Shown here piece by piece: positions 13,852-63,651 of a DNA stretch of 64,000 bases. The notes beneath the pieces were generated by a model. The model was not told the origin of the DNA. It saw nothing but the letters and a program-made list of their open reading frames with translations, and made no database searches. Made by a program: the position numbers and the translations under genes. Position 1 is the first letter of the stretch. Each line of letters opens with the position of its first letter. Source of the stretch: a virus; IMG/VR virus record IMGVR_UViG_3300026097_000980, positions 1-64,000 of that record, one strand, 5' to 3'.

Positions 13852-13859
13852 GTATTTAT
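13852..13859 (-). promoter_or_regulatory. Late-promoter-like box ATAAATAC
   Basis: Minus-strand GATAAATAC ending 14 bases before the start of the gene at 13837. It lies in the 48-base gap after the ferredoxin gene, so it could drive the group 13837 to 12157 separately. Confidence 0.42.
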
Positions 13860-13885
13860 CGTTGCAATAAAACATCGGAAACTTA

Positions 13886-16201: not shown

Positions 16202-16258
16202 TTTCTTTTCCTGTTTATAGTTTAGTATACATAATTTTTTATTTTTTGTCAATATAAA

Positions 16259-17293: not shown

Positions 17294-17346
17294 CTTTATC
17301 AGGTTTTTTAGATATAAAAGAATTATATATGTAATTTATGTGAATG

Positions 17347-32700: not shown

Positions 32701-32717
32701 GGCCAATCCTGTTTTAT

Positions 32718-35994: not shown

Positions 35995-36690
35995 TCAATG
36001 CCAGTTTTCGATTACAATTTTATCTTTAACTTCGTGTGGTTTAGGCTCACCGTGAAATACCAGTACAGCACAGTGTTTGTGTGGTTGGACATCATCTCTA
36101 ACAGTTTTAAAAGAACGTTTATTCGCTTTATACAGCAATTCACTGCGATCTCTAACTTCCCATTTGTAGCTCTGGATCCATTGATCCGGCCAAAAACAGA
36201 TTTGATTTTTTGCAACCTGCCATATCCAATCTTGATCTCCGTGTAATCTCTGTGCTTGTTTCTTGTCTCTTATAAAATTATCAAAGATATGGTTATGATG
36301 ACCAGCCATCCAGCTCATAATACTGCTATTGAGTACATTCCATTTAGGATTAAACTTTCGATTGAAATCGCGAATACCATAAAATCTGTCTCCGCAGTTG
36401 TCATAGAGTCTGGTAAGTGCTCCGACTATGACCACGTCCAGGTCAAAGTATAACATTCTACCTTCTAGACCTAGATTTTTATCAAATAAATGTACTTTAT
36501 GCCACCACGCTTTTTTATATTTTTGATTTTCTAAAATTAAAAGTTCAACACCTTCAATCGGAGTAGGATCGTCGGTAATACAATAAAATTTATACGGTCC
36601 GGTGATATTTCTCGAAACCATATTTCTTAATCGTTCTACATATTCTATACCGTATAACGATCCTATTCTAACACAGATAACATTTATCAT
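35995..36690 (-). CDS. Glycosyltransferase-like protein (DxD type)
   Basis: A 231-residue protein using the ATG at 36690 (MINVICVRIGSLYG), where TAATG overlaps the QueD-like stop; the longer frame would lie inside that gene. MLYFDLDVVIVG carries a DxD metal-sugar-nucleotide site near residue 80, and HGDQDWIW follows as in GT-A family enzymes. The start VRIGSLYGIEYVERL suits the first strand of a GT-A fold. Donor and acceptor are unknown. It may glycosylate phage DNA, a virion protein or a host glycan. Confidence 0.68.
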   Translation of the reverse strand: MINVICVRIGSLYGIEYVERLRNMVSRNITGPYKFYCITDDPTPIEGVELLILENQKYKKAWWHKVHLFDKNLGLEGRMLYFDLDVVIVGALTRLYDNCGDRFYGIRDFNRKFNPKWNVLNSSIMSWMAGHHNHIFDNFIRDKKQAQRLHGDQDWIWQVAKNQICFWPDQWIQSYKWEVRDRSELLYKANKRSFKTVRDDVQPHKHCAVLVFHGEPKPHEVKDKIVIENWH

Positions 36691-37274
36691 TAAATTTGTA
36701 ATCTCTTTAATGCTTCTTCGGGTGCTTCCCAATCCCAACGAGATTTCATCGGAAGTGTTTGTTCACTTGGCATTTTACGTTGGGCATCGGTCTTAGCGGT
36801 GTCTTCATCTACTTCTACCATTGCATCGTTGCGTTCGTGCTCATACACGCGAACACGTTCTACATAACAGCGACCTTGTGTAAGTTTGTAGATATAATGA
36901 TTAACATGTTCCCAAATAAACAAACTGCTCATTTCCATACTTACTCCGCTAGGTAACACTCGAAGTGTTCCTAACAATCCTCCGGTGTCTGTTAGCGAAT
37001 CTGGAATATTATTTAATCTTGGATCATCTGCTGGTAATACAGTTACATGATCGAAGTAGTATTCCAAAAATTCTTTCACAGGCTTTAACCCGCCGAACGG
37101 AACAATCCATCCATGCTTGTCAATGTCGCCTGCGAATGTAAATTCCACTGAACGATCGTAACCGTGTACCTGAGCACAGTGTCCGGGTGTACCGTCTTCG
37201 TTTGTATCAAACCATTGTGCATGGCCACATGGTAAATTTTTAAATACTTTAGTTGCTTTTACTTTTATACCCAT
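36690..37274 (-). CDS. QueD-like 6-pyruvoyl/6-carboxy-tetrahydropterin synthase homologue
   Basis: A 194-residue protein. The family order is CGHAQW (His18), CAQVHGYD (Cys33 and His37), FGGLKPVKEFLEYYFDHV (the D-H pair) and YEHERNDA (the catalytic Glu). QueD makes 6-carboxy-tetrahydropterin on the way to preQ0 and 7-deazaguanines. In place of the usual HGH there is HGY, so one zinc ligand appears missing. It is longer than QueD (120 residues) through a C-terminal tail. No queC, queE or folE is in the window, so a complete 7-deazaguanine pathway cannot be claimed. Confidence 0.75.
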   Translation of the reverse strand: MGIKVKATKVFKNLPCGHAQWFDTNEDGTPGHCAQVHGYDRSVEFTFAGDIDKHGWIVPFGGLKPVKEFLEYYFDHVTVLPADDPRLNNIPDSLTDTGGLLGTLRVLPSGVSMEMSSLFIWEHVNHYIYKLTQGRCYVERVRVYEHERNDAMVEVDEDTAKTDAQRKMPSEQTLPMKSRWDWEAPEEALKRLQI

Positions 37275-48676: not shown

Positions 48677-49381
48677 ATGAGAATAGTAGCTTTCGGTGAT
48701 AGTTTTACAAATGGCCTTATAAAATTACCTAAAAGATACACACAAGAAGAATCTCATCAAAACAGTTTTGTAAACAAAATGTTTCAGTCTAGTAAAATAT
48801 TTACTGATTATTCAAATTTAGCCGACAACGGTTGTGGTAATAGACAGATAGCATCTAAGATTTATAAATGTTTACTTGAAAAGAAAATCAGCAAGAACGA
48901 TTTTGTATTTATTGGATGGTCTAGTTTGACTAGAACAGCATTATGGGACAACGAATATTATAAAACTCCTGATAACAATGTTGTTGATTATAAACAGTTG
49001 ATTTATGATACAGAATCTAGTATACTTAGTACACACATGATACTGAAATTACAAGGAATCCGACACTGCATGATACAAGCGTTTCATGATTATTCAAGCC
49101 AGACAGACATAAAATATCTGCTAGAAAAGAATATCAATTTCCCGTGTTGGATAAATTTTCAAAAAAACAATAACACCCTTATGGATATATGTATGTTGAG
49201 ATATTTGAGCGAGGCAAAGTTCAAAGATATCAAAAATCATCATAAAGAAAAATATGTTCAGCATACAAAATACCTTGCAGAATGTTATCATCCTAACGAT
49301 GCAGGGCATAGATTAATAGCAGAAACACTGAGACCCATTGCGGAAATATATGCTACTACAGATAAAAGTTTAGAGTATTAA
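48677..49381 (+). CDS. SGNH hydrolase-like protein (GDSFT type)
   Basis: A 234-residue protein. It opens GDSFTNG at 7-13, the canonical SGNH block I, and ends with HPNDAGHRLIAE, giving the DxxH block V. DNGCGNRQIASK fits block II and VFIGWSSLTR the next strand. It is the only one of three related phage proteins with the full set, so hydrolase or transferase activity is plausible, perhaps removing or moving acyl groups on glycans. It begins the plus-strand block and is nine bases ahead of a radical SAM gene. Confidence 0.68.
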   Translation: MRIVAFGDSFTNGLIKLPKRYTQEESHQNSFVNKMFQSSKIFTDYSNLADNGCGNRQIASKIYKCLLEKKISKNDFVFIGWSSLTRTALWDNEYYKTPDNNVVDYKQLIYDTESSILSTHMILKLQGIRHCMIQAFHDYSSQTDIKYLLEKNINFPCWINFQKNNNTLMDICMLRYLSEAKFKDIKNHHKEKYVQHTKYLAECYHPNDAGHRLIAETLRPIAEIYATTDKSLEY

Positions 49382-49389
49382 GGATAGAA

Positions 49390-51381
49390 ATGCAAAGATA
49401 CAAAAAAGAAATTGCCAGAGTAACATTAGTCGAACCCGAATCCGGCGACTACTTAGATCTTTACTTCAGGCTTTATGACATTTCTATCACAAACAAATGG
49501 ATTCATAATTTTAAACAACTAAAATCAGGACCGCATAGCTTCAGAGAAAAAAATGTATTTCTAAGGTCTTACAATCGTAGCCTATTGGATGATATTAACG
49601 AGTGTATAGAAAAAATTAATAACTTTTATGACAGACCTTTAGAATCTATAAACAATCTAACCGAAGAATCGTTAAACTATCTACACGAATGTTATGAAAT
49701 TTACGGTAAAAGACTAAATGAACATTTAGAAAAAAGATGGTGGGATAGCGCATACAAAAAGATTTCCGTAAACGACCCGGAAGCAATGGTCTGGCCTGGT
49801 AGATCATTTAACGAAGATATGCATTTTTCGTTTATCAAATTAAATGAACTCATTCATAAATCGGAATTTGCCGACGAAAGACGTTCTCCAGGAGCAATTG
49901 TTCTCGGCAGTTTCAATAAAAGAACAGACCATATTCTAGAAAGAGACGATTATTTAACAATAACTCCTTTTCTGAATTTCGGAGATTTCTGTCTTGGTTA
50001 CAATACTCTCGGAAAAAATCTTCAACACATAATATTAGATAATGACGAAGATGCTGTGGCCAGAAATGCAATTGTTCCGCAACAAACATGGTCCGATGAG
50101 TTTTATATCCATCTAAAGTCCGACGAAACAAAACCTGATCATCTAATAGGTTATAAAGAAATGTGGGACAATTTAAAAATCAAAGGATTCCAGTTCGGCA
50201 ACTTTATTGCTAATAAAGAAGGATATATCAAACTAGGGGAAATGATCCCTGAGCAAAGAGCGAAACTCTACAAAAACGATCACACTCTTATTGATTTTAA
50301 AAAATACACAGACCTACAAGATATAACATTGATTTCAACCGATGAATACAAAACAGGAGTTCGTTTCCCGGAGTTCAAGAAACCTTATAAGAAACAAGGA
50401 AAAGAGATCGTAGCTGTAGATACTGATAATGTTGTAATGATTACATGGATATTAAATAATATTTGCACCTACAGTTGTAGATATTGTCCTCCAAATTTAC
50501 ACAACGGAAAAAACTACAGATACGAGTGGGAAGATATAGAGCCATTTGTGTCCCATTTACTTAAATTTTATCGAGGAAAGAACATTGAATTTAATTTAAG
50601 TGGTGGCGAACCGACACTTAGTCCCTTTTTTCCTATGCTGGTTAAAAAAATTTACGATAGCGGAGCGTATGTAGGTATAACCACAAATCTCGCAAGAAGT
50701 ACTAGATTTATAAAAGATAATTTTAAATATTTGAAATTTGCGTGTTGTAGCTTCCATCCTTATTACGAATTTCAAGACGAAAAATATAAAGAGTTTTTAG
50801 AGAAAATTAAGGAATGTGCAAACCATTGCCATACAACAGTCCGGGTTATGATGGACCCGTTACACTGGGATCAAACAGTGGAATTTGTAGAAACTCTAAA
50901 AAAATTAAAGTGCTGTAAAGTAGAAGTAGTATATATTGATAATCAGTACGGCAGTACACACAAACAGCTGATTGACATAAGTTATACGCCAGCCCAAATA
51001 GAATATATCAAAAACTTCGAACCTTTTCAAAAATTTGATGCAAAATGGAGTAAATCTGAATTATGGTCGCCAATGCCTACGAAAGGTGATGTAATTTTTT
51101 CCGACGGTTCTAGAGAAGAGTTGGGAACTGCACAAAAATATATTAATAACGGTCAGGCAAACTTTTTCAATTACTCGTGCGATATAGGTAAGAATAGTTT
51201 GTTTATTGGCCCAAATGGTGAGGTCAGAAAAGGAAATTGTTTGGTCGGAGGAAAAATTGGAACTGTTGAGAATTGGAGAGGAATAGACTGGAACGATCTC
51301 AAGCAATCAATAATTTGTAATTCATTGTGCTGCCATTGCGGCGCAGATGTTGTAATCTCCAAAAGGAAACGCAATGCGTAA
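49390..51381 (+). CDS. Radical SAM protein with large novel N-terminal domain
   Basis: A 663-residue protein. The first 340 residues form a domain I cannot assign (with GSFNKRTDHILERDDYL and FLNFGDFCLGYN as notable elements). From about 350 a radical SAM domain follows: CTYSCRYC (Cys359, Cys363, Cys366) and LSGGEPT. The end (from about 585) has NYSCDIGKNSLFIGPNG, a further Cys, and a CNSLCCHCGAD cluster, the same auxiliary pattern as the other short members. Fusion to the N-terminal domain may place the substrate in reach. It overlaps the next SGNH-like gene by eight bases, so the two are probably coupled. Confidence 0.82.
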   Translation: MQRYKKEIARVTLVEPESGDYLDLYFRLYDISITNKWIHNFKQLKSGPHSFREKNVFLRSYNRSLLDDINECIEKINNFYDRPLESINNLTEESLNYLHECYEIYGKRLNEHLEKRWWDSAYKKISVNDPEAMVWPGRSFNEDMHFSFIKLNELIHKSEFADERRSPGAIVLGSFNKRTDHILERDDYLTITPFLNFGDFCLGYNTLGKNLQHIILDNDEDAVARNAIVPQQTWSDEFYIHLKSDETKPDHLIGYKEMWDNLKIKGFQFGNFIANKEGYIKLGEMIPEQRAKLYKNDHTLIDFKKYTDLQDITLISTDEYKTGVRFPEFKKPYKKQGKEIVAVDTDNVVMITWILNNICTYSCRYCPPNLHNGKNYRYEWEDIEPFVSHLLKFYRGKNIEFNLSGGEPTLSPFFPMLVKKIYDSGAYVGITTNLARSTRFIKDNFKYLKFACCSFHPYYEFQDEKYKEFLEKIKECANHCHTTVRVMMDPLHWDQTVEFVETLKKLKCCKVEVVYIDNQYGSTHKQLIDISYTPAQIEYIKNFEPFQKFDAKWSKSELWSPMPTKGDVIFSDGSREELGTAQKYINNGQANFFNYSCDIGKNSLFIGPNGEVRKGNCLVGGKIGTVENWRGIDWNDLKQSIICNSLCCHCGADVVISKRKRNA

Positions 51382-52078
51382 AATTTTAAATTTTGGTTGT
51401 AGTCATACCAACGGTGCAGAGATTGACGAACCGTGGTCGGGAGAAAGACCCGATCTAGCTTATGGCGCTGTTCTTTCAAAGATGATAGATTACAAAGTCG
51501 AGCAGATATGCGGGAATGGTTGGAGTAACCAATGGATAATTAAAAATGCGTTCAATGCGTGTTTAGAATACATTGATAATAAAGATAAGCCGTTTATTCT
51601 CGTCGGATGGACATCAGTTGAACGAATGCCGTTGCAGTTTGCTGGTCAAGGCACAGTTTATCATGCAACAACAAATTTACCCCCAGAACCTAAATATTAT
51701 CCTGTTAGGAATTATGAAAGAATACACAGTACACTTTGGGGTTCTTCTGTTAACAAACCTGAAATGACTGAAATGCGATTATCTAATATATTAGGGTTCC
51801 AATCTTGGTTGAAAGAACATAATTTTCCATTTTTATTTTTCTGGGCCGTTAATAGTGCTGATACTAAAGTGCTAGAAAAATATAGCATGTGTTTTGATCC
51901 TTGTAGATTTTATGAACCAATTCAACACGATGAGTCTTACTGGAGATACTATCTTAATAATTACTATGATAAGTCTAAAAGATGGGCAAAACATGCACCT
52001 GCGGAGTTCCATAGGCACTGGGCACATAAGCTTTATACGTATATTTGCAAACACAAGTTGCTGGATCTAAATGTTTAG
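51374..52078 (+). CDS. SGNH-like protein (GCSHT type)
   Basis: A 234-residue protein opening NFGCSHTNG at 6-14, parallel to the proteins at 40785 and 48677. ICGNGWSNQW fits the glycine block and LVGWTSVER the middle strand. The C-terminus has FHRHWAHKLYTYI but no DxxH pair, so the triad may be incomplete. It overlaps the radical SAM gene by eight bases and the next gene by eight. It may act on the same substrate, but no reaction can be named. Confidence 0.58.
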   Translation: MRKILNFGCSHTNGAEIDEPWSGERPDLAYGAVLSKMIDYKVEQICGNGWSNQWIIKNAFNACLEYIDNKDKPFILVGWTSVERMPLQFAGQGTVYHATTNLPPEPKYYPVRNYERIHSTLWGSSVNKPEMTEMRLSNILGFQSWLKEHNFPFLFFWAVNSADTKVLEKYSMCFDPCRFYEPIQHDESYWRYYLNNYYDKSKRWAKHAPAEFHRHWAHKLYTYICKHKLLDLNV

Positions 52079-53567
52079 CATATCGAAAGGAACATTAAAT
52101 TTAGATCATCCTGCTTGTAAAAGCCAGATTGATTTCTTTGCGGGACAAAATTTTAACAAAGTGAATATTGATAACTTTTGTTCAGGCCACTACGATCATA
52201 GAATTGCCAAGCACTTTTATTTTTCAGTCCACCCGGCAGATCTCCCAATTACAGTTCTTGTATACGGAGAACAAATCCTAAATATACATCCCGGAACTTC
52301 TAGGGTGCTTGCATATTATCTATCTGATAAGAAAAAAATTCCTGCAATATTTTTACAGGTTGGTAGCATGAAAGAATTAGAATTTGCAGAAAATGTTCAA
52401 TCTATTACTGAAAAAAACGAACTTACCTTGGTCAATCAAAACGACAAGCCGAATAAACATTTTTGGCAAATAAATGTTATTGACCAAGAATACTATAAAA
52501 AGATCGAAAACGAAAAACAATTATCAAAAAAGTTTAAAGAGTTTTTTTATAGTTGTTTAGATCAAAACTCTGTAGATACTTTAAAAAAAGAATATCTAAA
52601 AAATAATCAGAAAAAATTCTGGAAACTGTGTTCACAAATTGCTAGAGAAAATTTTAACAAAAAGTTAGCAATTAAACCTCAAAGAACCGGAGCGTGGCAA
52701 TACAACAGTGATTTTCATTGGAATGTATTTTTTAAAAACTATGATGTTTTTTTGGTAGAGATGTTACCGAATGCAATGAGTGAATTCATAGCCCATCCTA
52801 ATGAGATAGAAAGTCAAAGTCGCTGGATTAAAAAATACAAAGATACTGAAAGAAAATTTCCTGAAATTTTTATAAACTACGAGCTAGACGAGTTTGTCAA
52901 AGATTACACAGAAATTTACGATTGTTTAAAATCGGAAAATCATAAAATAGCCGATTTGGTAGACAACAAGCTCTGGATGAACTGTAAAGGATATGAATAT
53001 ATAAAAACCATACAAAGTGTTTATAAACATGGTGGCATTAATTATAGTTCTAGCATACTAACAAACATCTGCGGAGAACGAAACTTTAAGTATCATCCTG
53101 GAAGGCATTTATCGTTTGCCAAGCGATTTATAGGACAACCGGATATTCATTTTCTAACAATTAAAAAGCAGGATCGCGAATGGTTAGATCAGTATGACAA
53201 AGTTAAAATTATAACCCAAATAGAAACCAAGAACCAAATTTTAGAAAACATGCCTAAAGAAATGACAGATGTCAGCACATGGCTTCAGGGAACTTTTCCT
53301 GTATATACGTGGCCGTTTGTGAACGGAGAAATTAAACTGCCTACTACTGAATGGGGAGATTTAAAAGATGACTGCGGCTATACTGTGATAACTAAATCTG
53401 GAAAAGAAGAAAATATGAAAGTGTTTACTGAATACGCAAAAATTTTAAAAAACACTGATTTACAGAATCTGTATAAAGGAAAAAAGAAAAACCATAAAAA
53501 GCTAAATGAAAGATATCTGGGGTTCCTGTTGAACAATCAAGAAGGTGACGAATTTGAAAAAGGTTAA
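52071..53567 (+). CDS. Unknown protein with ParB/sulfiredoxin-like HPG motif
   Basis: A 498-residue protein. Near residue 65 is LVYGEQILNIHPGTSRVLAY, which resembles the GxxR/HPGxxR phosphate-binding loop of ParB/sulfiredoxin-fold proteins. A second KYHPGRHLSFAKRF occurs near residue 343. The middle is Lys-rich and helical, with WKLCSQIARENFNK. No catalytic assignment is possible. It is coupled (eight-base overlap) to the SGNH-like gene and, by 14-23 bases, to the next radical SAM gene, so it probably belongs to the same pathway. Confidence 0.52.
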   Translation: MFSISKGTLNLDHPACKSQIDFFAGQNFNKVNIDNFCSGHYDHRIAKHFYFSVHPADLPITVLVYGEQILNIHPGTSRVLAYYLSDKKKIPAIFLQVGSMKELEFAENVQSITEKNELTLVNQNDKPNKHFWQINVIDQEYYKKIENEKQLSKKFKEFFYSCLDQNSVDTLKKEYLKNNQKKFWKLCSQIARENFNKKLAIKPQRTGAWQYNSDFHWNVFFKNYDVFLVEMLPNAMSEFIAHPNEIESQSRWIKKYKDTERKFPEIFINYELDEFVKDYTEIYDCLKSENHKIADLVDNKLWMNCKGYEYIKTIQSVYKHGGINYSSSILTNICGERNFKYHPGRHLSFAKRFIGQPDIHFLTIKKQDREWLDQYDKVKIITQIETKNQILENMPKEMTDVSTWLQGTFPVYTWPFVNGEIKLPTTEWGDLKDDCGYTVITKSGKEENMKVFTEYAKILKNTDLQNLYKGKKKNHKKLNERYLGFLLNNQEGDEFEKG

Positions 53568-54519
53568 GTTTGAAAGGGTTAACTTAGAATTAGTCGGCGG
53601 CTGCAATTATACCTGCCAGATGTGTCCTCAAAGTACCGGCAGAGGAAAAGAGTGGACTAAAAAACTGCCTTTCGAATTATTCGAAAATATTTTAGATCAA
53701 TTAGACGGTAATCCATTAATTGGACTACACGGTTCAGGAGAACCTACATTGATTAAAGATCTTCCTAGATACGTTGAAATCTGTAAAAAAAGAAATTATA
53801 AAGTGTTCATTAATACCAACGGTTTTAAATTGCACGGAAAATTTATGGAAGACGTAATTAATGCAGGAATAGATTGGATAAGGTTTAGTGTTGTAGGATA
53901 TAATTCTGAGACTTATAAAGATTGGATGGCGGTAGACAACTTTAATAAAATTGTAGAAAACACCATAGAGACTTCCGAGTATATCAAAATAGTTAATTCG
54001 CACTGCAAACTTTTAAGTTATCATTTAATACTTGACTCTAACAACATAGATTATGAGATTGATCAATATAGAAAAAACTATATAGAGAAAACCGGTACAC
54101 ACGGGTACATATGGAAAATGCATAACTGGAGTGGTAATTACCAGCCGTTATATTTAAGAGATCCGGCAAAGCGTAAAACCTGCGGCAGACCGTGGGCACC
54201 TGATATCACAATCAGGGCCGGAGGCATAGATAAGTTACACGGTGCTGTTGTTCCTTGTTGTCAAACAATGGGTCCTCCTAACGAAGCAAAAAGTGTTCTC
54301 GGACACGTTGAAACTGAAACAATTGACGAAATATGGAACGGACAATTATATCAAGAACTGCGTGATGCACATTCCAAAGGTAATTTTGATTCAATTGACT
54401 ATTGTAAAGACTGCGATCTTTTATATCAAGAAGATGAAAGTTTAATATGGAGTAATGCACCGGGAGCTTTTGACGGCAAGTTAATAGGAACTGACGTAAA
54501 TCTAAAGGATTTTATATGA
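53545..54519 (+). CDS. Radical SAM/SPASM enzyme
   Basis: A 324-residue protein from a GTG at 53545; a TTG at 53554, eight bases after AAGG, is an equally good start. CNYTCQMC (Cys20, Cys24, Cys27) binds the SAM-cleaving cluster, and GSGEPT is the SAM-binding motif. The C-terminus has CGRPW, then VPCCQTMG, GHVETETIDEIWNG and CKDCD, the classic SPASM order for two auxiliary clusters. SPASM enzymes modify peptides or small molecules, but no precursor peptide is visible. The stop overlaps the next gene by four bases. Confidence 0.85.
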   Translation: MTNLKKVKFERVNLELVGGCNYTCQMCPQSTGRGKEWTKKLPFELFENILDQLDGNPLIGLHGSGEPTLIKDLPRYVEICKKRNYKVFINTNGFKLHGKFMEDVINAGIDWIRFSVVGYNSETYKDWMAVDNFNKIVENTIETSEYIKIVNSHCKLLSYHLILDSNNIDYEIDQYRKNYIEKTGTHGYIWKMHNWSGNYQPLYLRDPAKRKTCGRPWAPDITIRAGGIDKLHGAVVPCCQTMGPPNEAKSVLGHVETETIDEIWNGQLYQELRDAHSKGNFDSIDYCKDCDLLYQEDESLIWSNAPGAFDGKLIGTDVNLKDFI

Positions 54520-55517
54520 CAGATTTTTCAAAAATTCCTTTTGAAGATATAATCAAAGTCGGACAGAGAACATTGCTAGATCGTCCATTATTTACTGTTA
54601 GTTGGATTCTTGGTAGATTCTGCAACTACAATTGTAGTTACTGCTGGCCATATGCCAGAAGCTCAACTCCGGATCATTTCGATCTCGATGTTTATCTAAA
54701 AGGAATTGACGAAATTAAACGGCAAGCGAGAAAGAACGGATTCACTGAATTTCACTTTAGTTTTAGTGGAGGTGAGCCCACTGCATACAAACAGTTTAAT
54801 AAAGTGCTAAAACATTATTCTGAAGATGCAGACCCTGAATACCAAAGCTTGCACATGACCACAAACCTTTCTCCTGCAAAAAAATGGTGGGAGAAGTTTG
54901 TAACAGACACATATAAATTACAGAGAAAAAGTATAACAGCAAGTTTTCATGCCGAACATGCAGATGAAACAGAGTTCGGTGATAAATGTCTTATGCTTAT
55001 GGATGCAGGAGTATTTGTAACTATAAATCAAGTTATGGTTCCTGAACTGTTTGACGAATATTATGAAAGATGCCAACGGTTTTTTGCTAGAGGAATCAAT
55101 GTAACGTTAAAGCCTCAAAGCGATCCAACAGCAAGTTATATAGTAGGCGGATATACAGAATATCAGAGAAAGATACTGCAAGAAAATTTTCCGCAAAAAA
55201 TTCCATCGAAATATAAGAGTGATATACCTCTATTACAAATCGAGTTAGAAGATAAATTTTCTAATAAGTTTTACTTAGATCAAGCAGAACGATTTAACGC
55301 TTTTGATTTTAATAAATTCCAAGGTTGGTCTTGTAATTCTGGTTATCAAAGCTGTATAATTAGAAGTAATGAAGTAAAAAGAAGCTATTCATGTCACGAT
55401 GAATCGTTAGGAACACTGACAGACGGATTTGAGTTGTTTGCTAATTCAAAAGTTTGTATTACTCCGTCGTGTGTTAGCAGTGCAGATAGTAAAATACCTA
55501 AGGTTAAACATGTATAA
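54516..55517 (+). CDS. Radical SAM enzyme with SPASM-like C-terminus
   Basis: A 333-residue protein. CNYNCSYC (Cys36, Cys40, Cys43) and FSGGEPT mark the radical SAM core. The C-terminal part has FQGWSCNSGYQSC, then YSCHDESLG and CITPSC, the same auxiliary pattern as the proteins at 16259, 49390, 58493 and 59535, although the last cysteines differ. The order of aromatic residues AGVFVTINQVM is shared with other members. Reaction unknown. It overlaps the next gene by eight bases. Confidence 0.84.
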   Translation: MTDFSKIPFEDIIKVGQRTLLDRPLFTVSWILGRFCNYNCSYCWPYARSSTPDHFDLDVYLKGIDEIKRQARKNGFTEFHFSFSGGEPTAYKQFNKVLKHYSEDADPEYQSLHMTTNLSPAKKWWEKFVTDTYKLQRKSITASFHAEHADETEFGDKCLMLMDAGVFVTINQVMVPELFDEYYERCQRFFARGINVTLKPQSDPTASYIVGGYTEYQRKILQENFPQKIPSKYKSDIPLLQIELEDKFSNKFYLDQAERFNAFDFNKFQGWSCNSGYQSCIIRSNEVKRSYSCHDESLGTLTDGFELFANSKVCITPSCVSSADSKIPKVKHV

Positions 55518-56499
55518 ACTAAATGAAATTAAAGAAATACATTTAGAAACAACATCTAAGTGTCAAGCAAGATGTCCTATGTGTCCTCGCCGTTTAAATG
55601 GAGGATCTATTAATCCATTAATAACGCTAGATGAAATTTATCTGGACGATTTTAAAAAATGGTTTCCGGTACATTTTCTTCAAAATTTAGACCGACTGTT
55701 TATGTGTGGAAATCTAGGTGATCCGGTTGTTGCTCAAGATACACTTGAAATTTTTCAATACTTAAGAGAGATTAATCCGGATATTCAATTGAGCATGCAT
55801 ACTAACGGAAGCGCAAGAACCAAAGACTGGTGGCACAAATTAGCACTTGCTGATGTTGAAGTAACCTTTGGCATCGACGGGCTAGAGGATACACACAGTC
55901 TTTACCGCATAAACACAGACTGGGCTACTATTATTAAGAATGCACAATCTTTCATTGATGCAGGCGGGAAAGCAAATTGGCACATGTTAGTGTTTAAACA
56001 TAACGAACATCAGATTGAAAACTGCAAGCAATTAAGTTTAGAGTATGGATTCAAATACTTTAGTATAAAACACACCAGTAGGTTTAAAGAAAATAAGTTG
56101 CACGTGATAGACGATGCTGGTAAAACTGCTTATAAAATTTATCCTACCCAAAAAAGTCTAGACATGATACCTAAGGTAACACAATTCTATACCGATCAAA
56201 GTCCGTGTATTAAGTGTAAGGCTAAACAACAAAAACAAATTTATGTTTCAGCAAACGGAAATATAGCTCCGTGTTGTTGGCTAGATATGCAATACAAATT
56301 ACATATACAAGATACCAGGATAGACTATATGGATAAAATAGAACAGTTTCCTAACCTTAGAGAAATGTCAATTGAAGATATATTTTCCTCTGATTATTTT
56401 AAAAGCATTGAAAAAACTTGGGCAGATGATCCGTTGTTAGAATGTTCAAAACAATGCGGTAGTTTCGATAAATTACAGGAGCAATTCGTTGAAAGTTGA
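55510..56499 (+). CDS. Radical SAM/SPASM enzyme
   Basis: A 329-residue protein using the ATG at 55510; the longer frame lies inside the preceding gene. CQARCPMC (Cys18, Cys22, Cys25) is the SAM-cleaving cluster. The usual GGEP motif is replaced by GNLGDP, an odd but recognisable variant. CIKCKAKQQ, IAPCCWLDM and CSKQCG at the C-terminus give the SPASM cluster order. It is closest to the protein at 53545 in layout. It overlaps the methyltransferase-like gene by 11 bases. Confidence 0.84.
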   Translation: MYKLNEIKEIHLETTSKCQARCPMCPRRLNGGSINPLITLDEIYLDDFKKWFPVHFLQNLDRLFMCGNLGDPVVAQDTLEIFQYLREINPDIQLSMHTNGSARTKDWWHKLALADVEVTFGIDGLEDTHSLYRINTDWATIIKNAQSFIDAGGKANWHMLVFKHNEHQIENCKQLSLEYGFKYFSIKHTSRFKENKLHVIDDAGKTAYKIYPTQKSLDMIPKVTQFYTDQSPCIKCKAKQQKQIYVSANGNIAPCCWLDMQYKLHIQDTRIDYMDKIEQFPNLREMSIEDIFSSDYFKSIEKTWADDPLLECSKQCGSFDKLQEQFVES

Positions 56500-57094
56500 T
56501 ATACAAGATGTTCTGTTTTGGATGGACGCTATTCGTAACAGCGATGATCGTTATCGCACACTTGAAAGTTTTTGGAAAGGGCAGGTTAATAGTAAAATTT
56601 GGCTGATTGAAAATCTGCAGAAATTTCAAGATCAGAAATGGGAACACATTGTTATTCACGGTGGCTGGAACGGTGTATTAGCCAGCCTTATTTTCAACAG
56701 CGGCATAGAAGTAGATAGAATAACCAGTGTTGATATAGACCCCGGCTGTGAAGAAACAGCATACACTATTAACAAGAGATACGAAATGACGGGCAGATTT
56801 CGTGCGGTAACCGCTGATATGTGCAAATACTCTGAACCTGCTGATGTTATCATTAACACCAGCTGTGAACATATTACTCAACCACAGTATTATGATTGGC
56901 TACACAACCAAAACGATGACAGTCTTTATGTTTTACAAAGTAATAACTATTTTGATTTGAATGAGCATATAAACTGTAGTGAAGATTTAGTACAGTTTGT
57001 TCAAAAGTCCAAACTTCGGGTTGTATTTTCAGATAGATTACAACTGCCTAAATACGACCGTTACATGATTATAGGAAAGAAAAATGACAGATAA
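56489..57094 (+). CDS. SAM-dependent methyltransferase-like protein
   Basis: A 201-residue protein starting at a TTG at 56489 with AGGAG eight bases ahead. HIVIHGGWNGVLASLIF near 54-70 gives a Gly-rich SAM-binding loop, TSVDIDPGC an acidic end of the second strand, and ADVIINTSCEHI a fourth-strand element. These match the class I methyltransferase fold. The opening ILFWMDAIR-like sequence (DVLFWMDAIRNS) and TLESFWKG are, from memory, conserved in related phage proteins. It probably methylates the product of a neighbouring radical SAM enzyme, which is inference. Overlaps both neighbours. Confidence 0.7.
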   Translation: MKVDIQDVLFWMDAIRNSDDRYRTLESFWKGQVNSKIWLIENLQKFQDQKWEHIVIHGGWNGVLASLIFNSGIEVDRITSVDIDPGCEETAYTINKRYEMTGRFRAVTADMCKYSEPADVIINTSCEHITQPQYYDWLHNQNDDSLYVLQSNNYFDLNEHINCSEDLVQFVQKSKLRVVFSDRLQLPKYDRYMIIGKKNDR

Positions 57095-58496
57095 ATTTTG
57101 GTATAACCCTAAGGACACTGAGTTAGGAAAATATCAAAGAGAAATAGAAAGTGTAGCCGGAACACCTTCATTTTGTATATTGCCGTGGATACATTTTGCA
57201 ACCCGTCCGAATGGTGATATGAGATTATGCTGTTCTGCAAATGCAAGTGGAGCAGGCAATGATCATGAAGTAGGACTTGTAAGAATGGAACATGGCCGCC
57301 CTGCTAACTTCGGGCGAGAAACTCCTATGGAAGCATGGAATAATGAATACATGCGCAGTGTGCGCACCACAATGCTTAACGGAGAAATACCTAACAGTTG
57401 CCGCAAATGTTTTGAAGAAGAAAAAGTGGGTGTTGTTAGCAAACGTATATGGGAAACTGGAACTTGGCACAGAGATGGGGTAGATATTCCAGAACTTATT
57501 AGACAAACAACCGAAGACGGCATCGTTCCTGAAGAACTGGTATATTTAGATCTACGACTAGGGCATACCTGCAATATTAAATGTGTTATGTGTTCACCTC
57601 ATGACAGTTCTCGCTGGGTTAAAGATTGGGAACAACTTATTCCAGTTTTACAAGTTGACAATGTAAAACAACAGATGCAGTGGGATCGATCCGAGTTTAA
57701 CAACAAGTGGCACGAGAAAGATACATTTTGGGAAGAAATGTATCGTCAAATACCAAATCTAAAACAGGTATATTTTGCCGGCGGTGAACCTCTAATGATC
57801 AAAGAACACAAAGAGTTCATTGAAGAAATAGTACGTCAGGGATATCAAGACAAGATTTTGTTAAGATATAACTCCAATGGACTATTAGTAGATGAAGATT
57901 TAATTAAGTTATGGAGCAAGTTTAAAAAGGTTAAGTTTGCAGTAAGTATGGATGCAGTTTATGAAAGAGATGAATATATACGCTATCCTACAGATTGGAA
58001 TACTGTTGAAAAAACTCTGAGATTGTTAGACGATACTCCGGATAATATACAAACAAGTTTAGCAACAGCAATACAAATATTCAATGTAAAACACCTACCT
58101 GACTTTATGAAGTGGAAGGTAGAAAGCGGATTTAAAAAACTTAATCTAGGTAACGTACCTGGCGGAGTACAAATGGGCGGCGGCTTAGTAAACATGCATT
58201 TATTGTACATTCCTACATTCTTAAGCATACAAATACTACCAAAAGAAGACAAGCAAGAAGTTCGAGAACTGTATATGGATTTTAAAGACTGGCTCTGGAA
58301 AAACTATAGACAGGATGACGATTTCTGGAAAGTCAATCCTTATGGATGGCGTAGATGGGAAGCAGTAATGAACCATATGGATGCAACTGACAATAGCGAT
58401 CAACTACCAGGATTTAAAGAATATGTGAATAAATTAGATGCTATCCGCGGACTGAATGCAAAATCAGTGTTTCCGGAAATTGCTCATCTTCTCTAA
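57084..58496 (+). CDS. Radical SAM enzyme with N-terminal twitch domain
   Basis: A 470-residue protein. The N-terminal part has CILPWIHFATRPNGD (Cys31) then CC (49-50) and later CRKC (106, 109), which together form an N-terminal twitch/SPASM-like cluster-binding unit. The radical SAM core begins at CNIKCVMC (Cys163, Cys167, Cys170), with FAGGEPL later. The same layout is found in the protein at 60418 on the other strand. This is the N-terminal-twitch radical SAM type, whose products are mostly unknown. The last four bases overlap the converging gene. Confidence 0.84.
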   Translation: MTDKFWYNPKDTELGKYQREIESVAGTPSFCILPWIHFATRPNGDMRLCCSANASGAGNDHEVGLVRMEHGRPANFGRETPMEAWNNEYMRSVRTTMLNGEIPNSCRKCFEEEKVGVVSKRIWETGTWHRDGVDIPELIRQTTEDGIVPEELVYLDLRLGHTCNIKCVMCSPHDSSRWVKDWEQLIPVLQVDNVKQQMQWDRSEFNNKWHEKDTFWEEMYRQIPNLKQVYFAGGEPLMIKEHKEFIEEIVRQGYQDKILLRYNSNGLLVDEDLIKLWSKFKKVKFAVSMDAVYERDEYIRYPTDWNTVEKTLRLLDDTPDNIQTSLATAIQIFNVKHLPDFMKWKVESGFKKLNLGNVPGGVQMGGGLVNMHLLYIPTFLSIQILPKEDKQEVRELYMDFKDWLWKNYRQDDDFWKVNPYGWRRWEAVMNHMDATDNSDQLPGFKEYVNKLDAIRGLNAKSVFPEIAHLL

Positions 58497-59542
58497 ACAA
58501 GCGTTTGAAAAACTTCCCAATCTTTTGCCTTTGGCACACACATTCCGCAACCGCATCTATCATTAGGACAAACAATTGTTTTATCTTTGTGTTCATGTGC
58601 ATACTGTAAGATTGCGTCAGTGTCACTGAGATTTCCTATGGGGCCCCGACCTTCCGAGTGCAGTGCTTTACAAGTTTGGTGATGATAAACTTCGCCAGTC
58701 TGCTGATCTATATGTAAAAAGTAACGATTAACACTGCAAAACCACCCTTTGAAATGAGTATCGATATGGGTAATGTCTTGCCACTGGCCGTTTTTTATAC
58801 CTTTCATACACCTACCTCCACAGCAGGTTCGTCCTAATTCAGTGCCCTGCTTATCAGTTTCATTGGGCGCCGAGATTCCTAGGTAATTAAAATACCATAC
58901 TTGCTGTTCTGGAGAGTAATCATGGCTGGTTCTGCGAGGTGTACCGTCGGTGTCTAAAAACCATCCTTGTCTTGATATGTTACCGTCACCGATCGGTCGG
59001 GGCTGATGCTTTATACCTAGTTCTTTTAACTCGTTACATACCTCTACACATTCATCAAAATAATCAACATGCATCATTACGTTGACTTGTAACCAAATAC
59101 CTTTTTGATATAATAGTCTTATATTTTCCAAAACCTGTTTCTTCAGTTTATCATCTGCTTCGGCATGATAACTCACAGTTACGCCTTCAAATATTTCTGC
59201 AATTCTTTCTGTGTTCTTCGGATGCCACGCTCCGTTAGTAGTTAAACTTAACCTAAACCTGTCTTCGTTATTCTTAATGTATTCAGCAAAATCCCAAAAC
59301 GCAGGATTAACGGTGGGCTCACCTCCAGTAAAATTAATATTCACTAAATGACTATATATCTTAGTGTATTCTTTTACGAACTCAAATGTTTTCATTAGTG
59401 TTTCGTAAGGCTGTGGCTTACTATAATTATCGTGTCTTGTCGCTTCGCAGTATGAGCAATCATAATTACAACGTCTTCCCGTGTCCCAGGTAACCATAAT
59501 TCTTTCTGGATTAGTCAAATCAACCGCATCTATCTTAATCAT
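58493..59542 (-). CDS. Radical SAM enzyme with SPASM-like C-terminus
   Basis: A 349-residue protein using the ATG at 59542, preceded by AAAGGAAA and overlapping the upstream gene by eight bases. CNYDCSYC (Cys25, Cys29, Cys32) and FTGGEPT mark the core. TCCGGRCMKG, GWFCSVNRY and CPNDRCGCGMC form a long set of further cysteines, richer than in the sister proteins. It converges with the twitch protein gene by four bases. Substrate unknown. Confidence 0.85.
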   Translation of the reverse strand: MIKIDAVDLTNPERIMVTWDTGRRCNYDCSYCEATRHDNYSKPQPYETLMKTFEFVKEYTKIYSHLVNINFTGGEPTVNPAFWDFAEYIKNNEDRFRLSLTTNGAWHPKNTERIAEIFEGVTVSYHAEADDKLKKQVLENIRLLYQKGIWLQVNVMMHVDYFDECVEVCNELKELGIKHQPRPIGDGNISRQGWFLDTDGTPRRTSHDYSPEQQVWYFNYLGISAPNETDKQGTELGRTCCGGRCMKGIKNGQWQDITHIDTHFKGWFCSVNRYFLHIDQQTGEVYHHQTCKALHSEGRGPIGNLSDTDAILQYAHEHKDKTIVCPNDRCGCGMCVPKAKDWEVFQTLV

Positions 59543-60425
59543 GGGTTTCCTTTGAAAGTGGAATATCGGCCGCACATGTGCACCAATTTCTAGTGCAAAC
59601 TATCCATTCTCTAGGTGGCTCAAAACTGCCGTTATAAATATTTCCCAAGCTACCGCCCACTCTGCAAGTAGCGCGATGTACTTCGCCATCCCAGTTAATC
59701 ATCAAGCTTTCAATACCAGCAGAGCACTTCCACCCATTAAATCGATTTAGATGATTTTTAATTATATCGTTGGCATGATAAGTTTTACCCGTATCGTCTA
59801 CACAGTTAGGACGAACTGTAGAGTTTGTAGAAAGTATCCACTCTAAATCATTGCCTTCGTATCTTAAGTCGTCAAACGTGTCGTGATCGCCTTGTGTCCA
59901 CCGTATTCTTCTAACAGCCACGGGTATGTTTTCTTCGTCAAGTTCTTCGTATGCTCGTTTAACAAGATCCATGTGTTCATGATGAGCCATTAAATTAACC
60001 TGAATAGGTTTACCGAACCATTTGCCTACCATGATAATGTTTTGTAAAGAACGTCTCCAGAGATTGTTATCGAAGTGTAAACTGAATACATAATGATTAA
60101 CAGGTTGTTCGCAATACCATCTGCCATCACGAGTTCCGTTTGTTGTTATGTTTATCCAGTCAACTCTTTGATTTAAGTGATCTAACAGTTCTTCGATATT
60201 AGGGTGAACACAAGGCTCTCCACCAGTAAGGCTAACGCGAATAGGTTTGTCTAATTCACAGAGCGCATCAACGGCATCGGTCAACAATTTAATATTTGTG
60301 TGAGGAGAAACATTGTCGTGAATTTCCGAAGGACAGTATGCACAGTCTAAGTTACAACGTTTTCCAATATTCCATTCTACTTTGATAGAATTTTGATGAT
60401 CATAGATACTGGTAAGGCTACGCAT
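59535..60425 (-). CDS. Radical SAM enzyme with SPASM-like C-terminus
   Basis: A 296-residue protein. CNLDCAYC (Cys24, Cys28, Cys31) and LTGGEP mark the core. The end has GWKCSAGIESLMINWDG, an ATCRVGG and a CTRNWCTCAAD cluster, very similar to those of the proteins at 16259 and 49390. It is among the shorter members and seems close to a minimal version. It overlaps both neighbours by eight bases, so three radical SAM genes on this strand are translated as a unit. Confidence 0.85.
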   Translation of the reverse strand: MRSLTSIYDHQNSIKVEWNIGKRCNLDCAYCPSEIHDNVSPHTNIKLLTDAVDALCELDKPIRVSLTGGEPCVHPNIEELLDHLNQRVDWINITTNGTRDGRWYCEQPVNHYVFSLHFDNNLWRRSLQNIIMVGKWFGKPIQVNLMAHHEHMDLVKRAYEELDEENIPVAVRRIRWTQGDHDTFDDLRYEGNDLEWILSTNSTVRPNCVDDTGKTYHANDIIKNHLNRFNGWKCSAGIESLMINWDGEVHRATCRVGGSLGNIYNGSFEPPREWIVCTRNWCTCAADIPLSKETHD

Positions 60426-61686
60426 ATTTTTTAAACTCTGGATTGATACTAAAAAAATCTTGATTTCGGGTTACATCTAATTTAAGATTAAAATCTATGC
60501 AATCTTGCCAATATTCACTTAAATCATTTGCCTGTAAAAAGTTTATATTATCTTGTATTTGTTGAAGTGTTACCTGCTCTAATAGTTTATGTTGTTGTAC
60601 CAAAGGATATTCTAATACTTCAGTTTTCATTTCCTCTAATCTGTCTACAATTCTTTGTTTTAGTTCTTGTGGTAATGTTTGAGCACTTAATGATCTAGGA
60701 TAATTTACTCGGTGAGAGTAAAACACAATACCCATTTCGTTTATAAAGTAATCGATAACTTTATCAATCTGCATAATATTGTTTGATTGCACAGTAAATG
60801 CACCTACCACTCTACTAACATTAGGAAACGATTTAAATACCTTTATGTTTTCTTCTATTTCCGAAAACTTGCCATTGCCTCTAATATATTCATAAACATC
60901 GTGTATTCCGTCTATGCTTACGTTTACAGCAATGCTTTTAAACTTAGGCCAATAATCGTGTATTGTGCGTCCACCTTTGATGCCTAGTGTTGTTCCGTTA
61001 GTAGCGTATTTTAATTCTATCTGATCGCCATACTGTGCCAGTTTATCGAGAATCTTATAATGATATGGATCCATTAAAGGCTCCCCTCCTGCAAATTCTA
61101 CTCGTCTAAAATACGGCAATAGTTTTTCGAACGAGTCCCACCAGTTATCTGAGTTATCAAAAGGCCCAATATATTGACCCGGAGTGTCAACTAATGCATC
61201 TACTGTGGGAATAAGATAGTTATTTTCTTTTTCGTAATGACTTCTTATCGCTCCCCAATCTTTCCAGCTGGTACTATCGAGAGGGTTACACATGCGACAT
61301 TTTAAATTGCAAAGATTATTAAGCTTAATTTCCATAGTAGGAAATTCAAACGGCATTGTGTAATCGTCGTTTAAAGCGTTTAGTGCGTCTGGGTATAAGT
61401 TGATACGTGCTTCGGGTATAACGCCCGCTGTGTGACGCTGTCGTAAGCTTTCGACACCCTGATCCTCTAGGTCAAAGCACGGTTTACATACATCTGGACG
61501 TTCGCCATTTAGTACCTGCCTGCGAACTTCTCGCATAGTTTCGTTATTCCATGCTTGTTCTAAACTTTCTTTTTGGATCCAGCCGACGGGTTGGCTACGG
61601 CAGCATACTTTGATAGCACCGTCTTCTCGTGTAGCAAGACCTGTAAAAGGATGCATGCAGAATGTGCAACTATCTTTTATATTCAC
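60418..61686 (-). CDS. Radical SAM enzyme with N-terminal twitch domain
   Basis: A 422-residue protein from a GTG at 61686; the conserved Cys7 and Cys10 would be lost by starting at the later ATG. CTFCMHPFTGL, CC (28-29) and CKPC (67, 70) form the N-terminal twitch unit, and CNLKCRMC (Cys126, Cys130, Cys133) with FAGGEPL the core. It mirrors the protein at 57084. No clear ribosome site precedes the GTG. It starts the minus-strand trio 61686 to 58493 and is divergent from the oxygenase-like gene at 61725. Confidence 0.83.
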   Translation of the reverse strand: MNIKDSCTFCMHPFTGLATREDGAIKVCCRSQPVGWIQKESLEQAWNNETMREVRRQVLNGERPDVCKPCFDLEDQGVESLRQRHTAGVIPEARINLYPDALNALNDDYTMPFEFPTMEIKLNNLCNLKCRMCNPLDSTSWKDWGAIRSHYEKENNYLIPTVDALVDTPGQYIGPFDNSDNWWDSFEKLLPYFRRVEFAGGEPLMDPYHYKILDKLAQYGDQIELKYATNGTTLGIKGGRTIHDYWPKFKSIAVNVSIDGIHDVYEYIRGNGKFSEIEENIKVFKSFPNVSRVVGAFTVQSNNIMQIDKVIDYFINEMGIVFYSHRVNYPRSLSAQTLPQELKQRIVDRLEEMKTEVLEYPLVQQHKLLEQVTLQQIQDNINFLQANDLSEYWQDCIDFNLKLDVTRNQDFFSINPEFKKYA

Positions 61687-61724: not shown

Positions 61725-62402
61725 ATGATAACACCAGCTGGCTATGTTTGCAACAAAGAAAAGATTGAAAAATTATGCACTTTGTTAGACAATCTGGATT
61801 TTCCACTCTGTTTAAACGAACCATCAGGAAACTTTTTTTATGATCCTTGGATTATTAAAGAAGAATTTAAAAATACAATTTTTAATGAAGTACTGTCGAC
61901 ACTAGAAACTACAACAGGACAAGCAAGAATTTTAAAATTAGAAGCAGGTAGATGTTATAATGTCCATGCAGATATTGATGATAGGTATCATCTAAATTTA
62001 TCTGGAGAAGTTAGTTATCTTGTAGATGTTGATAATGAGCAAATGTTTAGAATGTATACAGACGGAATTTGGTATCAAATGAATGCAGGTAAGAGACACA
62101 GTGCTATAAATTTCGGGAGGGGATATAGGTATCAACTTGTGGTGCGTCATGTATTACATAATCCTGTGTTAAACGATCCTGTCAATGTAAAGATAATTTC
62201 GCATGAACCTACTACAGATGATACTAGATATGTATTTGATAACTATATTAGTTCCTGGTTAAATGAAAGTTGTAAACAACAAAAGATAATGAACTTCGAA
62301 CCTAATGTTAACGAAGTAAAATTCAGTACGGAAAGAAATCACATTGATAGTCTTAAAAAAATTTTACCAGAAACCTTGGAGATGATTTTATATGATCAAT
62401 AA
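61725..62402 (+). CDS. Asp/Asn hydroxylase-like 2OG-Fe(II) oxygenase
   Basis: A 225-residue protein. ILKLEAGRCYNVHADIDDRYHL gives an HxD pair (NVHAD), GKRHSAINFG the second His, and GYRYQLVVRHVL an Arg, the order seen in aspartyl/asparaginyl beta-hydroxylase-like proteins. It would hydroxylate peptides or proteins. It begins the plus-strand trio 61725-63651, divergent from the twitch gene, and its end overlaps the next gene by 11 bases. Assignment is by motif only. Confidence 0.6.
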   Translation: MITPAGYVCNKEKIEKLCTLLDNLDFPLCLNEPSGNFFYDPWIIKEEFKNTIFNEVLSTLETTTGQARILKLEAGRCYNVHADIDDRYHLNLSGEVSYLVDVDNEQMFRMYTDGIWYQMNAGKRHSAINFGRGYRYQLVVRHVLHNPVLNDPVNVKIISHEPTTDDTRYVFDNYISSWLNESCKQQKIMNFEPNVNEVKFSTERNHIDSLKKILPETLEMILYDQ

Positions 62403-63081
62403 TACAGGCTGGGAGTATGTTCGAAAGTATGTTGACAAAGGTGATAGATTTCAACTTAGCTCGACAAATGTTCTCTATACACCTACAATAAATCCGGAAA
62501 AAACTATGATGTGTATGCATTATATAGTAGACACAAACTATATGATCGGAAGTTGTGTTCCTAGAACAGATGAAATGCTACAATATTGGTTTGAAAGAGA
62601 ATTAGGATATCTCGAATTATTTCAGGGAAAGTCCTGGTGTCCTAACATTTACGATGTAGATTATGAAAACAAAAAAATATTAATAGAATATAATAAAGAG
62701 AGTTTAAATTTTCCAGTCTATGTCGAGGAAAGATCTTTGGATAAAGAATATCCTAATTGGAAAGCAGATCTCTTTAATATTATTAATGAGGTTTATCAAT
62801 TAGGATATTATAAAGCATCAATTTATCCACACTGTTTCTTTTATACAAACGAAGGAAAAATGAAAATGATTGACTACTATGCAACTGTTCCAAGAGACGA
62901 TTCTCTTATTCACAAAAGCATTATCGAACCTATTATAGGAGTCGACTCTGAGCAACGATTTATAGAAGTTAAAAACGGAGAATATTTTGAAATGGCAAAT
63001 CACTTTAAAAACTCTCTTAAAACCTGGATCAAGTGGCCCGGAGATCCTCTTCCGGAATTTTGTGAAAAGATTTTTCAGTAA
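62392..63081 (+). CDS. Kinase-fold-like protein, possibly inactive
   Basis: A 229-residue protein. The segment FERELGYLELFQGKSWCPNIYDV, then KKILIEYNKE, resembles the N-lobe and hinge of aminoglycoside-phosphotransferase-like kinases. YYKASIYPHCFFYTNEGKMKMIDYYATV sits where a catalytic HxDxxxxN loop and a DFG-type metal Asp would be, with His and Asp only partly preserved. Activity is therefore uncertain; a pseudokinase or sugar kinase is possible. It lies between two oxygenase-like genes, with an 11-base overlap upstream. Confidence 0.42.
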   Translation: MINNTGWEYVRKYVDKGDRFQLSSTNVLYTPTINPEKTMMCMHYIVDTNYMIGSCVPRTDEMLQYWFERELGYLELFQGKSWCPNIYDVDYENKKILIEYNKESLNFPVYVEERSLDKEYPNWKADLFNIINEVYQLGYYKASIYPHCFFYTNEGKMKMIDYYATVPRDDSLIHKSIIEPIIGVDSEQRFIEVKNGEYFEMANHFKNSLKTWIKWPGDPLPEFCEKIFQ

Positions 63082-63105
63082 GTTAACGATAAGGGTGTGA
63101 GTATA

Positions 63106-63651
63106 ATGCAAAATTATGTTAATGCTGATTTTTTTAAATTTGAATATGATTGGTCAGGCCTGCTTGATAGTATAAAAGATTTTGAGGGTGTTCCAAATAC
63201 TCCAGATCCAAGTATTTGGAAAATGGAAATTCCTGCTTACAGCGAAATTAAAAAAACTTGGGAAGAAGCTAATTATCCTGATAGTCATATAAAATGGATT
63301 AATTTTTACCCCGGGCAACATTACACAGAAGAACTAGATAAGTTATTGTGCAATCACTTTAACATAGGATATAGAAGATCGTGGATAAGCAAAATAGAAC
63401 CAGGTTATAGTGCTCCGTGGCACTGGGACGTAGAAGACGATCCGGAAGACTACGATGGACCTTTACGTTTGAGTATTTTTATAAATGATTGTGAACCCGG
63501 ACATATTTTCATATTAGGCAAAGAAGATGTTTTTTATAATATGAAATCAGGAGATGGAATTTTTTGGAAAAGATTTAACGAATATCATATTGGCATGAAT
63601 GCCGGCTTAACTTCTAAATATATGTATCATTTAAAAGCAAAAATTATTTAA
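63106..63651 (+). CDS. 2OG-Fe(II) oxygenase-like protein
   Basis: A 181-residue protein from the ATG at 63106, preceded by AAGGGTG; a GTG nine bases earlier is less well placed. IEPGYSAPWHWDVEDD gives the HxD pair and FNEYHIGMN the distal His, in a beta-helix context like the previous oxygenase. It closes the plus-strand trio and its stop overlaps the converging minus-strand gene by eight bases. Substrate unknown. Confidence 0.6.
   Translation: MQNYVNADFFKFEYDWSGLLDSIKDFEGVPNTPDPSIWKMEIPAYSEIKKTWEEANYPDSHIKWINFYPGQHYTEELDKLLCNHFNIGYRRSWISKIEPGYSAPWHWDVEDDPEDYDGPLRLSIFINDCEPGHIFILGKEDVFYNMKSGDGIFWKRFNEYHIGMNAGLTSKYMYHLKAKII

Follow-up and report, generated by a model that had tools for sequence, protein, structure and literature searches.

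A shared island of radical SAM genes in a marine phage and its possible role in surface modification

Why would a marine phage carry eight radical S-adenosylmethionine (SAM) enzymes almost side by side? We addressed this question with the virus record IMGVR_UViG_3300026097_000980, a linear record of 155.5 kb whose first 64 kb form the stretch analysed here (the window; coordinates are those of the window unless the record is named). A sequence-only reading of this DNA had placed eight radical SAM genes within about 12 kb. Indeed, eight such genes (rS1 to rS8) were located in a 12.3 kb block, with the open reading frames (ORFs) at the expected coordinates. The count holds for the block but not for the genome, as the whole record encodes eleven, three of them outside the block at 16259 and at record positions ~66598 and ~68082. 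The core of the block co-diverges under purifying selection among related viruses, and we tentatively propose that the island encodes a biosynthetic module of the phage, one that would make or remodel an unusual sugar-type residue to be put on a surface structure. The genes of the block are as follows.

48677-49381, + strand: putative SGNH/GDSL-like hydrolase (Lipase_GDSL 17.8 bits, under the 23.6 cut-off)
49390-51381, + strand: rS1, 663 aa, an N-terminal domain of ~340 aa without assignment plus a group I radical SAM part (PF04055 34.4 bits)
51374-52078, + strand: SGNH-like protein of DUF6071 (PF19547 35.6 bits, over cut-off)
52071-53567, + strand: 498 aa protein (no Pfam match over cut-off; sub-threshold Epimerase match)
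53545-54519, + strand: rS2, SPASM radical SAM enzyme of group III (PF04055 56.9 bits, PF13186 44.7 bits)
54516-55517, + strand: rS3, group I radical SAM enzyme, core (PF04055; one orthologue per lineage in 15 lineages including the window)
55510-56499, + strand: rS4, SPASM radical SAM enzyme of group III, core type (PF04055 34.0 bits, PF13186 31.5 bits; family in 15/15 lineages)
56489-57094, + strand: MT, predicted class I SAM-dependent methyltransferase, 201 aa, core (AlphaFold2 and Foldseek; 14/15 lineages)
57084-58496, + strand: rS5, N-terminal-twitch radical SAM enzyme, the most conserved core gene (NF033640, 391 bits against a cut-off of 170)
58493-59575, - strand: rS6, group I radical SAM enzyme with extra cysteines, accessory (PF04055; 6/15 lineages)
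59535-60425, - strand: rS7, group I radical SAM enzyme, core (PF04055; one orthologue per lineage in 15 lineages including the window)
60418-61686, - strand: rS8, N-terminal-twitch radical SAM enzyme, core (NF033640, 333.6 bits against 170; 15/15 lineages)
61725-62402, + strand: AspH-type 2-oxoglutarate (2OG)/Fe(II) hydroxylase-like protein, core, divergent from rS8 (PF05118 16.1 bits, under cut-off; 15/15 lineages)
62392-63081, + strand: kinase-like protein, by eye (no Pfam match)
63097-63651, + strand: 2OG-oxygenase-like protein, by eye (no Pfam match; related copies at record 64.2-65.2 kb)

Between 48677 and 63651 there are almost no gaps, the genes being spaced by +38 to about -41 bases, in agreement with the gene coupling noted from the letters. 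The one exception is an overlap of 89 bases, which arises because an upstream TTG start at 55429 was chosen over the ATG at 55510. Genes from 48677 to 58496 lie on the + strand, followed by three - strand genes (58493-61686) and a divergent gap of 38 bases before 61725.

We then assigned the radical SAM proteins to classes. With PF04055 scores of 34.0 to 56.9 bits against a cut-off of 29.5, all eight qualified, and each has the CxxxCxxC motif, as had been claimed. Blastp together with profiles separated them into three groups; cysteine conservation was measured in families that comprised 17 to 34 homologues after removal of redundancy. Group I (49390, 54516, 58493, 59535 and, outside the block, 16259) is characterized by C-terminal cysteines in the pattern C-x19/21-C...C-x4-C(xC), which was 100% conserved among the homologues of rS3 (33 sequences), rS6 (17) and rS7 (34), and the auxiliary C234, C254, C277, C282 and C284 of rS7 (59535) were likewise invariant. 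Group II consists of rS5 (57084) and rS8 (60418), whose auxiliary-cluster domain is N-terminal and which reached the NF033640 cut-off of 170 bits, whereas the other six proteins missed it. In rS5, C31, C49, C50, C106 and C109 were 100% conserved, and the pattern C31-x17-C49...C106xxC109 was without variation in an alignment of 31 sequences. Group III (53545 and 55510) bears a C-terminal SPASM domain, PF13186 scoring over 21.5 bits at the C-terminus of these two proteins and at the N-terminus of the group II pair. The auxiliary cysteines expected from the sequence-only reading were thereby found fully conserved in every family checked. No block radical SAM protein reached the curated cut-off of a maturase, a cofactor-pathway equivalog or a sugar-acting family.

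To follow the island through other viruses, we scanned IMG/VR with 57084, which gave 161 encoding stretches; 80 loci were kept, comprising 31 lineages at 95% identity. Fifteen non-redundant lineages besides the window had at least 6 kb of flank on both sides, and all 15 of these well-covered lineages contained 5-12 radical SAM genes inside 9 kb. The rS4, rS5, rS7/rS3 and rS8 families, the AspH-like gene and a family of DxD proteins, c2, were each present in 15 of the 15, and MT in 14, while the rS6 family was found in six and rS1 is rare, with one relative (42%) outside its own lineage. Four to five of the block's radical SAM enzymes thus have orthologues in each of these lineages. In the group I tree, rS3 and rS7 each formed a clade of their own, in which 15 lineages had one copy apiece, and we therefore regard them as functions that separated long ago, not as products of recent duplication. 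The gene order is alike but not fixed, the rS3-rS4-MT part lying on the opposite side of rS8 in several relatives.

Sequence divergence further supported a constrained core. The pN/pS values of rS3, rS5, rS7, rS8 and MT were 0.06-0.43, with synonymous sites saturated or almost so in most pairs, and those of rS4 and AspH indicated looser constraint (0.42-0.70); in the comparison with the nearest relative, rS5, rS8 and MT showed dN of 0.03-0.06 at dS of ~1. All core family pairs were correlated in Mantel tests (r 0.34-0.83, p=0.001), a pattern that common descent of the phages could produce by itself. Since the core recurs in at least 15 well-covered lineages, the block represents a real shared pathway, and this recurrence in related viral stretches also ruled out a one-off assembly artefact. 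The dedicated modification pathway proposed earlier is thus well supported by co-occurrence, similar order, purifying selection and co-divergence; the profile check and the neighbourhood survey suggested with it gave matches for 8/8 proteins and co-occurrence in 15/15 lineages, and the outcomes that would speak against it did not occur. Outside the IMG/VR loci, no close rS5 homologue was found in the phage isolate collection, and although rS5 and rS8 are full members of the NF033640 twitch proteins by score, the cellular relatives detected in a scan of genome contigs (Lysobacterales, Halobacteriovorax, Bdellovibrionia and others) were only distant, at 29% identity or less.

The fixed, co-diverging core bears on the possibility that the genes are loosely assembled auxiliary metabolic genes boosting host metabolism, such as cofactor or low-oxygen chemistry, as Timms et al. 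suggested for Campylobacter phages (PMC2853527). The studied phage does encode AhcY (S-adenosylhomocysteine hydrolase) and MetK (SAM synthetase), identified by profile matches at record 98248-99534 and about 122000-122770, which could feed SAM use; together they would support heavy SAM consumption. However, neither gene turned up in any of the 14 relatives tested, mostly fragments, so we regard them as an accessory feature of this phage that lies outside the module. As no radical SAM protein attained the cut-off of a cofactor-pathway equivalog and the core is unlike a loose collection, we consider such a metabolic role improbable.

The genome that carries the island had been called T4-like. 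The record encodes a T4-type clamp loader, a class I ribonucleotide reductase and baseplate-wedge- and tail-fibre-like proteins, which agree with that description, but neither a T4 portal nor Terminase_6N was found in its 155.5 kb, so that T4-like membership is plausible, not proven. A 159.6 kb relative record with the same module encodes 15 radical SAM proteins together with a T4 portal and a terminase (Terminase_6N), and whole-record scans of 18 relatives gave 6 to 15 radical SAM proteins each.

It had also been supposed that no phage system of this kind was described. Earlier accounts do exist. According to Timms et al. 2010 (PMC2853527), the virulent Campylobacter phages CP220 and CPt10 encode 11 and 12 radical SAM proteins and share an interchangeable cluster in which five of them occur in one module of 10-12 genes; these modules carry a putative glycine amidinotransferase and have little mutual sequence relationship. 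In the count of radical SAM genes alone, the studied phage, with eight in 12.3 kb, exceeds five per short block, but its place among large virulent T4-type phages is only plausible, and none of the non-radical-SAM proteins of its island matched a glycine amidinotransferase in Pfam. According to Nishimura et al. 2017 (PMC5332604), the T4-like marine phage TARA_ERS488813_N000010 has 12 radical SAM genes and Fe-S metabolism genes, including an Fe-S A-type carrier; in our search for Fe-S assembly genes, only one of nine records had such a carrier, and that one was not the studied phage. For pelagimyophages, a third study (PMC7029224) describes a host recognition cluster in which radical SAM cassettes, AspH and glycosyltransferase or other sugar genes are placed between tail fibres and VrlC, names AspH as a core gene, and proposes surface alteration against superinfection.

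Genomes with about a dozen radical SAM genes have thus been noted since 2010 with no function assigned, and radical SAM-rich phage genomes are already known; what is new here is that the core is co-inherited, how widely it occurs and the sugar-type genes that go with it. No published mechanism or product for phage radical SAM sets was found in the literature searched, as far as its available text extends. The defined target is now the core of rS3, rS4, rS5, rS7, rS8, MT and AspH, seen in every well-covered lineage examined.

The sugar-type company was most evident in the cultured SAR11 phage Mosig (Pelagibacter phage Mosig EXVC030M, MT647606), which has homologues of rS4 (E 7e-24), rS7 (2e-11) and MT (2e-23). 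These genes adjoin a PseC/LegC/ArnB-like sugar aminotransferase and a NodU-like carbamoyltransferase, and the block sits between a tail-fibre gene and VrlC/baseplate (gp8) genes. Mosig differs from the studied phage in having three annotated MoaA-like genes and no rS5/rS8 homologue in the Mosig stretch compared, and identity in the blast alignments is only ~26-29%. A pelagimyophage host recognition cluster would be expected between VrlC and gp14, together with tail fibres; in the studied record, the Mosig VrlC had no match and tail-fibre-like proteins lie 10-15 kb from the island, which may thus occupy a host-recognition region of the phage. In Campylobacter phage CP21, a relative of CP220 and CPt10, radical SAM genes near tail-fibre genes match the group I profiles (best E 4e-20), but neither an N-twitch rS5/rS8 pair nor MT was found in the CP21 stretch compared. 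In the large Vibrio phage K566, 7 kb (11956-18698 of the K566 stretch) contain at least four N-twitch-like radical SAM genes, some of them annotated as hypothetical.

Two further lines of evidence point toward a sugar. The N-terminal part of rS5/rS8 matched the twitch domain of BtrN by profile, and the cysteine spacing C-x17-C...CxxC of rS5 resembles that of BtrN, an aminocyclitol dehydrogenase; the twitch domain of BtrN itself lies in the C-terminal half of the protein, whereas the matching domain is N-terminal in rS5/rS8. In c2, the residues D61/D63 are invariant, and the model (predicted local distance difference test, pLDDT, 87) gave as leading Foldseek matches mostly GT-A glycosyltransferases with a few GT-A-like nucleotidyltransferases, although the template modelling (TM) scores were only 0.25-0.42; we predict that c2, which accompanies the module in 15/15 relatives, is a GT-A-fold glycosyltransferase. 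Searches of c2 and most accessory families against Pfam, PHROG and PDB sequences were uninformative.

On this basis, the radical SAM enzymes may abstract hydrogen from an unreactive C-H of a sugar, cyclitol or nucleotide-sugar intermediate, and an electron would pass to an auxiliary 4Fe-4S cluster, bound by the twitch or SPASM domain, as in BtrN-type dehydrogenation; epimerisation, rearrangement or coupling may fall to other members. Further groups would be attached by the class I methyltransferase, by hydroxylases of the AspH/2OG type and by accessory proteins (SGNH, kinase-like or acetyltransferase-like), and a glycosyltransferase would move the product to an acceptor, either a host envelope glycan or the phage's own tail fibres. 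An envelope glycan altered in this manner during infection could exclude competing phages. That the substrate is a sugar, in which order the steps run, what the acceptor is and how the phage benefits are all points that we infer. Two genes of the window outside the island are given below.

16259-17293, - strand: rS9, group I radical SAM enzyme (PF04055; blastp matches rS1, rS3, rS6 and rS7)
35995-36738, - strand: glycosyltransferase-like protein (phrog_1962 glycosyltransferase, E 2.5e-27)

Several observations weigh against a sugar substrate. Besides the missing match to a sugar-acting family and the low TM-scores of c2, c2 was not found in the 155.5 kb record of the studied phage, whose nearest known glycosyltransferase-like gene (35995-36738) is 12 kb from the island. 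The matches of the Mosig aminotransferase and carbamoyltransferase are under curated cut-offs, and the likeness to BtrN is limited to the cluster-binding domain and names no substrate. The MT model (pLDDT 91) matched class I methyltransferase folds most closely, supporting the methyltransferase-like assignment made earlier, but the fold fits peptide as well as small-molecule substrates; PDB-sequence searches with MT gave no informative match. Finally, the AspH-like protein keeps the pattern HxDxDxR...H....N.G...R across 27 homologues, which we take to represent the AspH catalytic and 2-oxoglutarate-binding positions, and AspH enzymes are best known for acting on protein side chains.

The last points lead to the main rival, direct modification of virion proteins, in which side chains of tail-fibre or baseplate proteins would be hydroxylated, epimerised, cross-linked or methylated, tuning host recognition or stability in seawater. 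SPASM and twitch radical SAM enzymes often act on peptides, the protein N-terminal methyltransferase NTM1 is among the nearest folds to MT, and tail-fibre-like proteins are encoded 10-15 kb from this island, with tail-fibre genes also near the CP21 radical SAM genes; AspH-type hydroxylases are core here and in pelagimyophages (PMC7029224). On the other hand, no NCBIfam peptide-maturase cut-off was reached, sugar-type genes go with the module in relatives, and the core appears much more conserved than typical tail fibres would be. We therefore regard direct virion-protein modification as rather unlikely, and still retain the sugar-type module as our tentative preference.

A peptide product was considered as well. 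The mix of SPASM radical SAM, methyltransferase and 2OG enzymes recalls heavily modified ribosomally synthesised and post-translationally modified peptides (RiPPs). Nevertheless, all maturase models were far under cut-off and no fitting precursor gene emerged: the 16 islands compared (211 kb) are 98.7% coding and 1.3% intergenic, with no conserved small ORF. A RiPP with an embedded precursor was accordingly rejected for lack of room, and a RiPP-type pathway that yields a modified peptide seems highly improbable.

Hypermodification of phage DNA bases, protecting the genome from restriction, was also weighed, as some phages have complex multi-enzyme base modification, with glycosyltransferases in such systems. 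The protein at 52071 had been read as ParB-like, which would fit, but it had no ParB match in Pfam and only the sub-threshold Epimerase match, leaving that reading unconfirmed. Furthermore, the thymidylate-synthase/dCMP-hydroxymethylase family (PF00303) was absent from nine records, mostly fragments, on which ground hydroxymethyl-pyrimidine hypermodification was rejected; QueE cut-offs were missed (best 37.9 against 260 bits), which eliminated 7-deazaguanine modification; and the related module of Mosig sits with tail and host-recognition genes, not with replication genes. A role in DNA modification thus appears very unlikely. A viperin-like antiviral enzyme was another rejected candidate (NF038283 best 54 against 180 bits; PADLOC pVip matches partial and weak).

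Returning to the surface, we suggest, with comparable reserve, that the island belongs to a pathway widespread and conserved among marine phages, with at least five distinct radical SAM enzymes that would act in sequence with MT and AspH to give a chemically new surface modification, on a sugar or a virion-protein residue, restricted to virus-infected cells or virions. If true, phages would run complex radical chemistry that controls cell-surface recognition. Because the constrained core is defined and a cultured SAR11 phage carries related genes, the product can be searched for by mass spectrometry of virions and infected cells.

Among the remaining genes, the SGNH assignments reported earlier for two proteins are weak, the one at 48677 being under the Lipase_GDSL cut-off and the one at 51374 matching DUF6071 over cut-off. 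Of the extra radical SAM proteins at record 66.6-69.1 kb, one is near the B12-binding type (best models PhpK and ladderane-type) and the other nearest Tes/TrsS, with all of these model matches under cut-off. An apparent amidinotransferase family (c31) of relatives was recognized by eye, without confirmation from profiles, and was excluded from the evidence. A second kinase-like copy lies at record 69171-69860, 32% identical to that at 62392-63081, and the family of one of the two copies was found in 19 loci. In a Bdellovibrionia genome, three consecutive radical SAM genes adjoin glycine-cleavage-like genes (positions 6833-11287 of the Bdellovibrionia stretch); one has an N-terminal group I-type cysteine domain and two are N-twitch-like, and the trio gave no substrate clue.

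Elsewhere in the phage genome, a 2419 aa protein (window 25447-32706) fuses baseplate-wedge-like and tail-fibre-like regions, and at record 71.0-75.0 kb a stand-alone protein of 189 aa, which matches the C-terminus of a tail-fibre-like protein (445 aa) at 40%, resembles a spare tip domain. By eye, the record, including 78.2-81.6 kb, is also rich in genes of host-type metabolism, which resemble those for SdhB, cytochrome c, GlyA, heme oxygenase, GroEL and peroxiredoxin.

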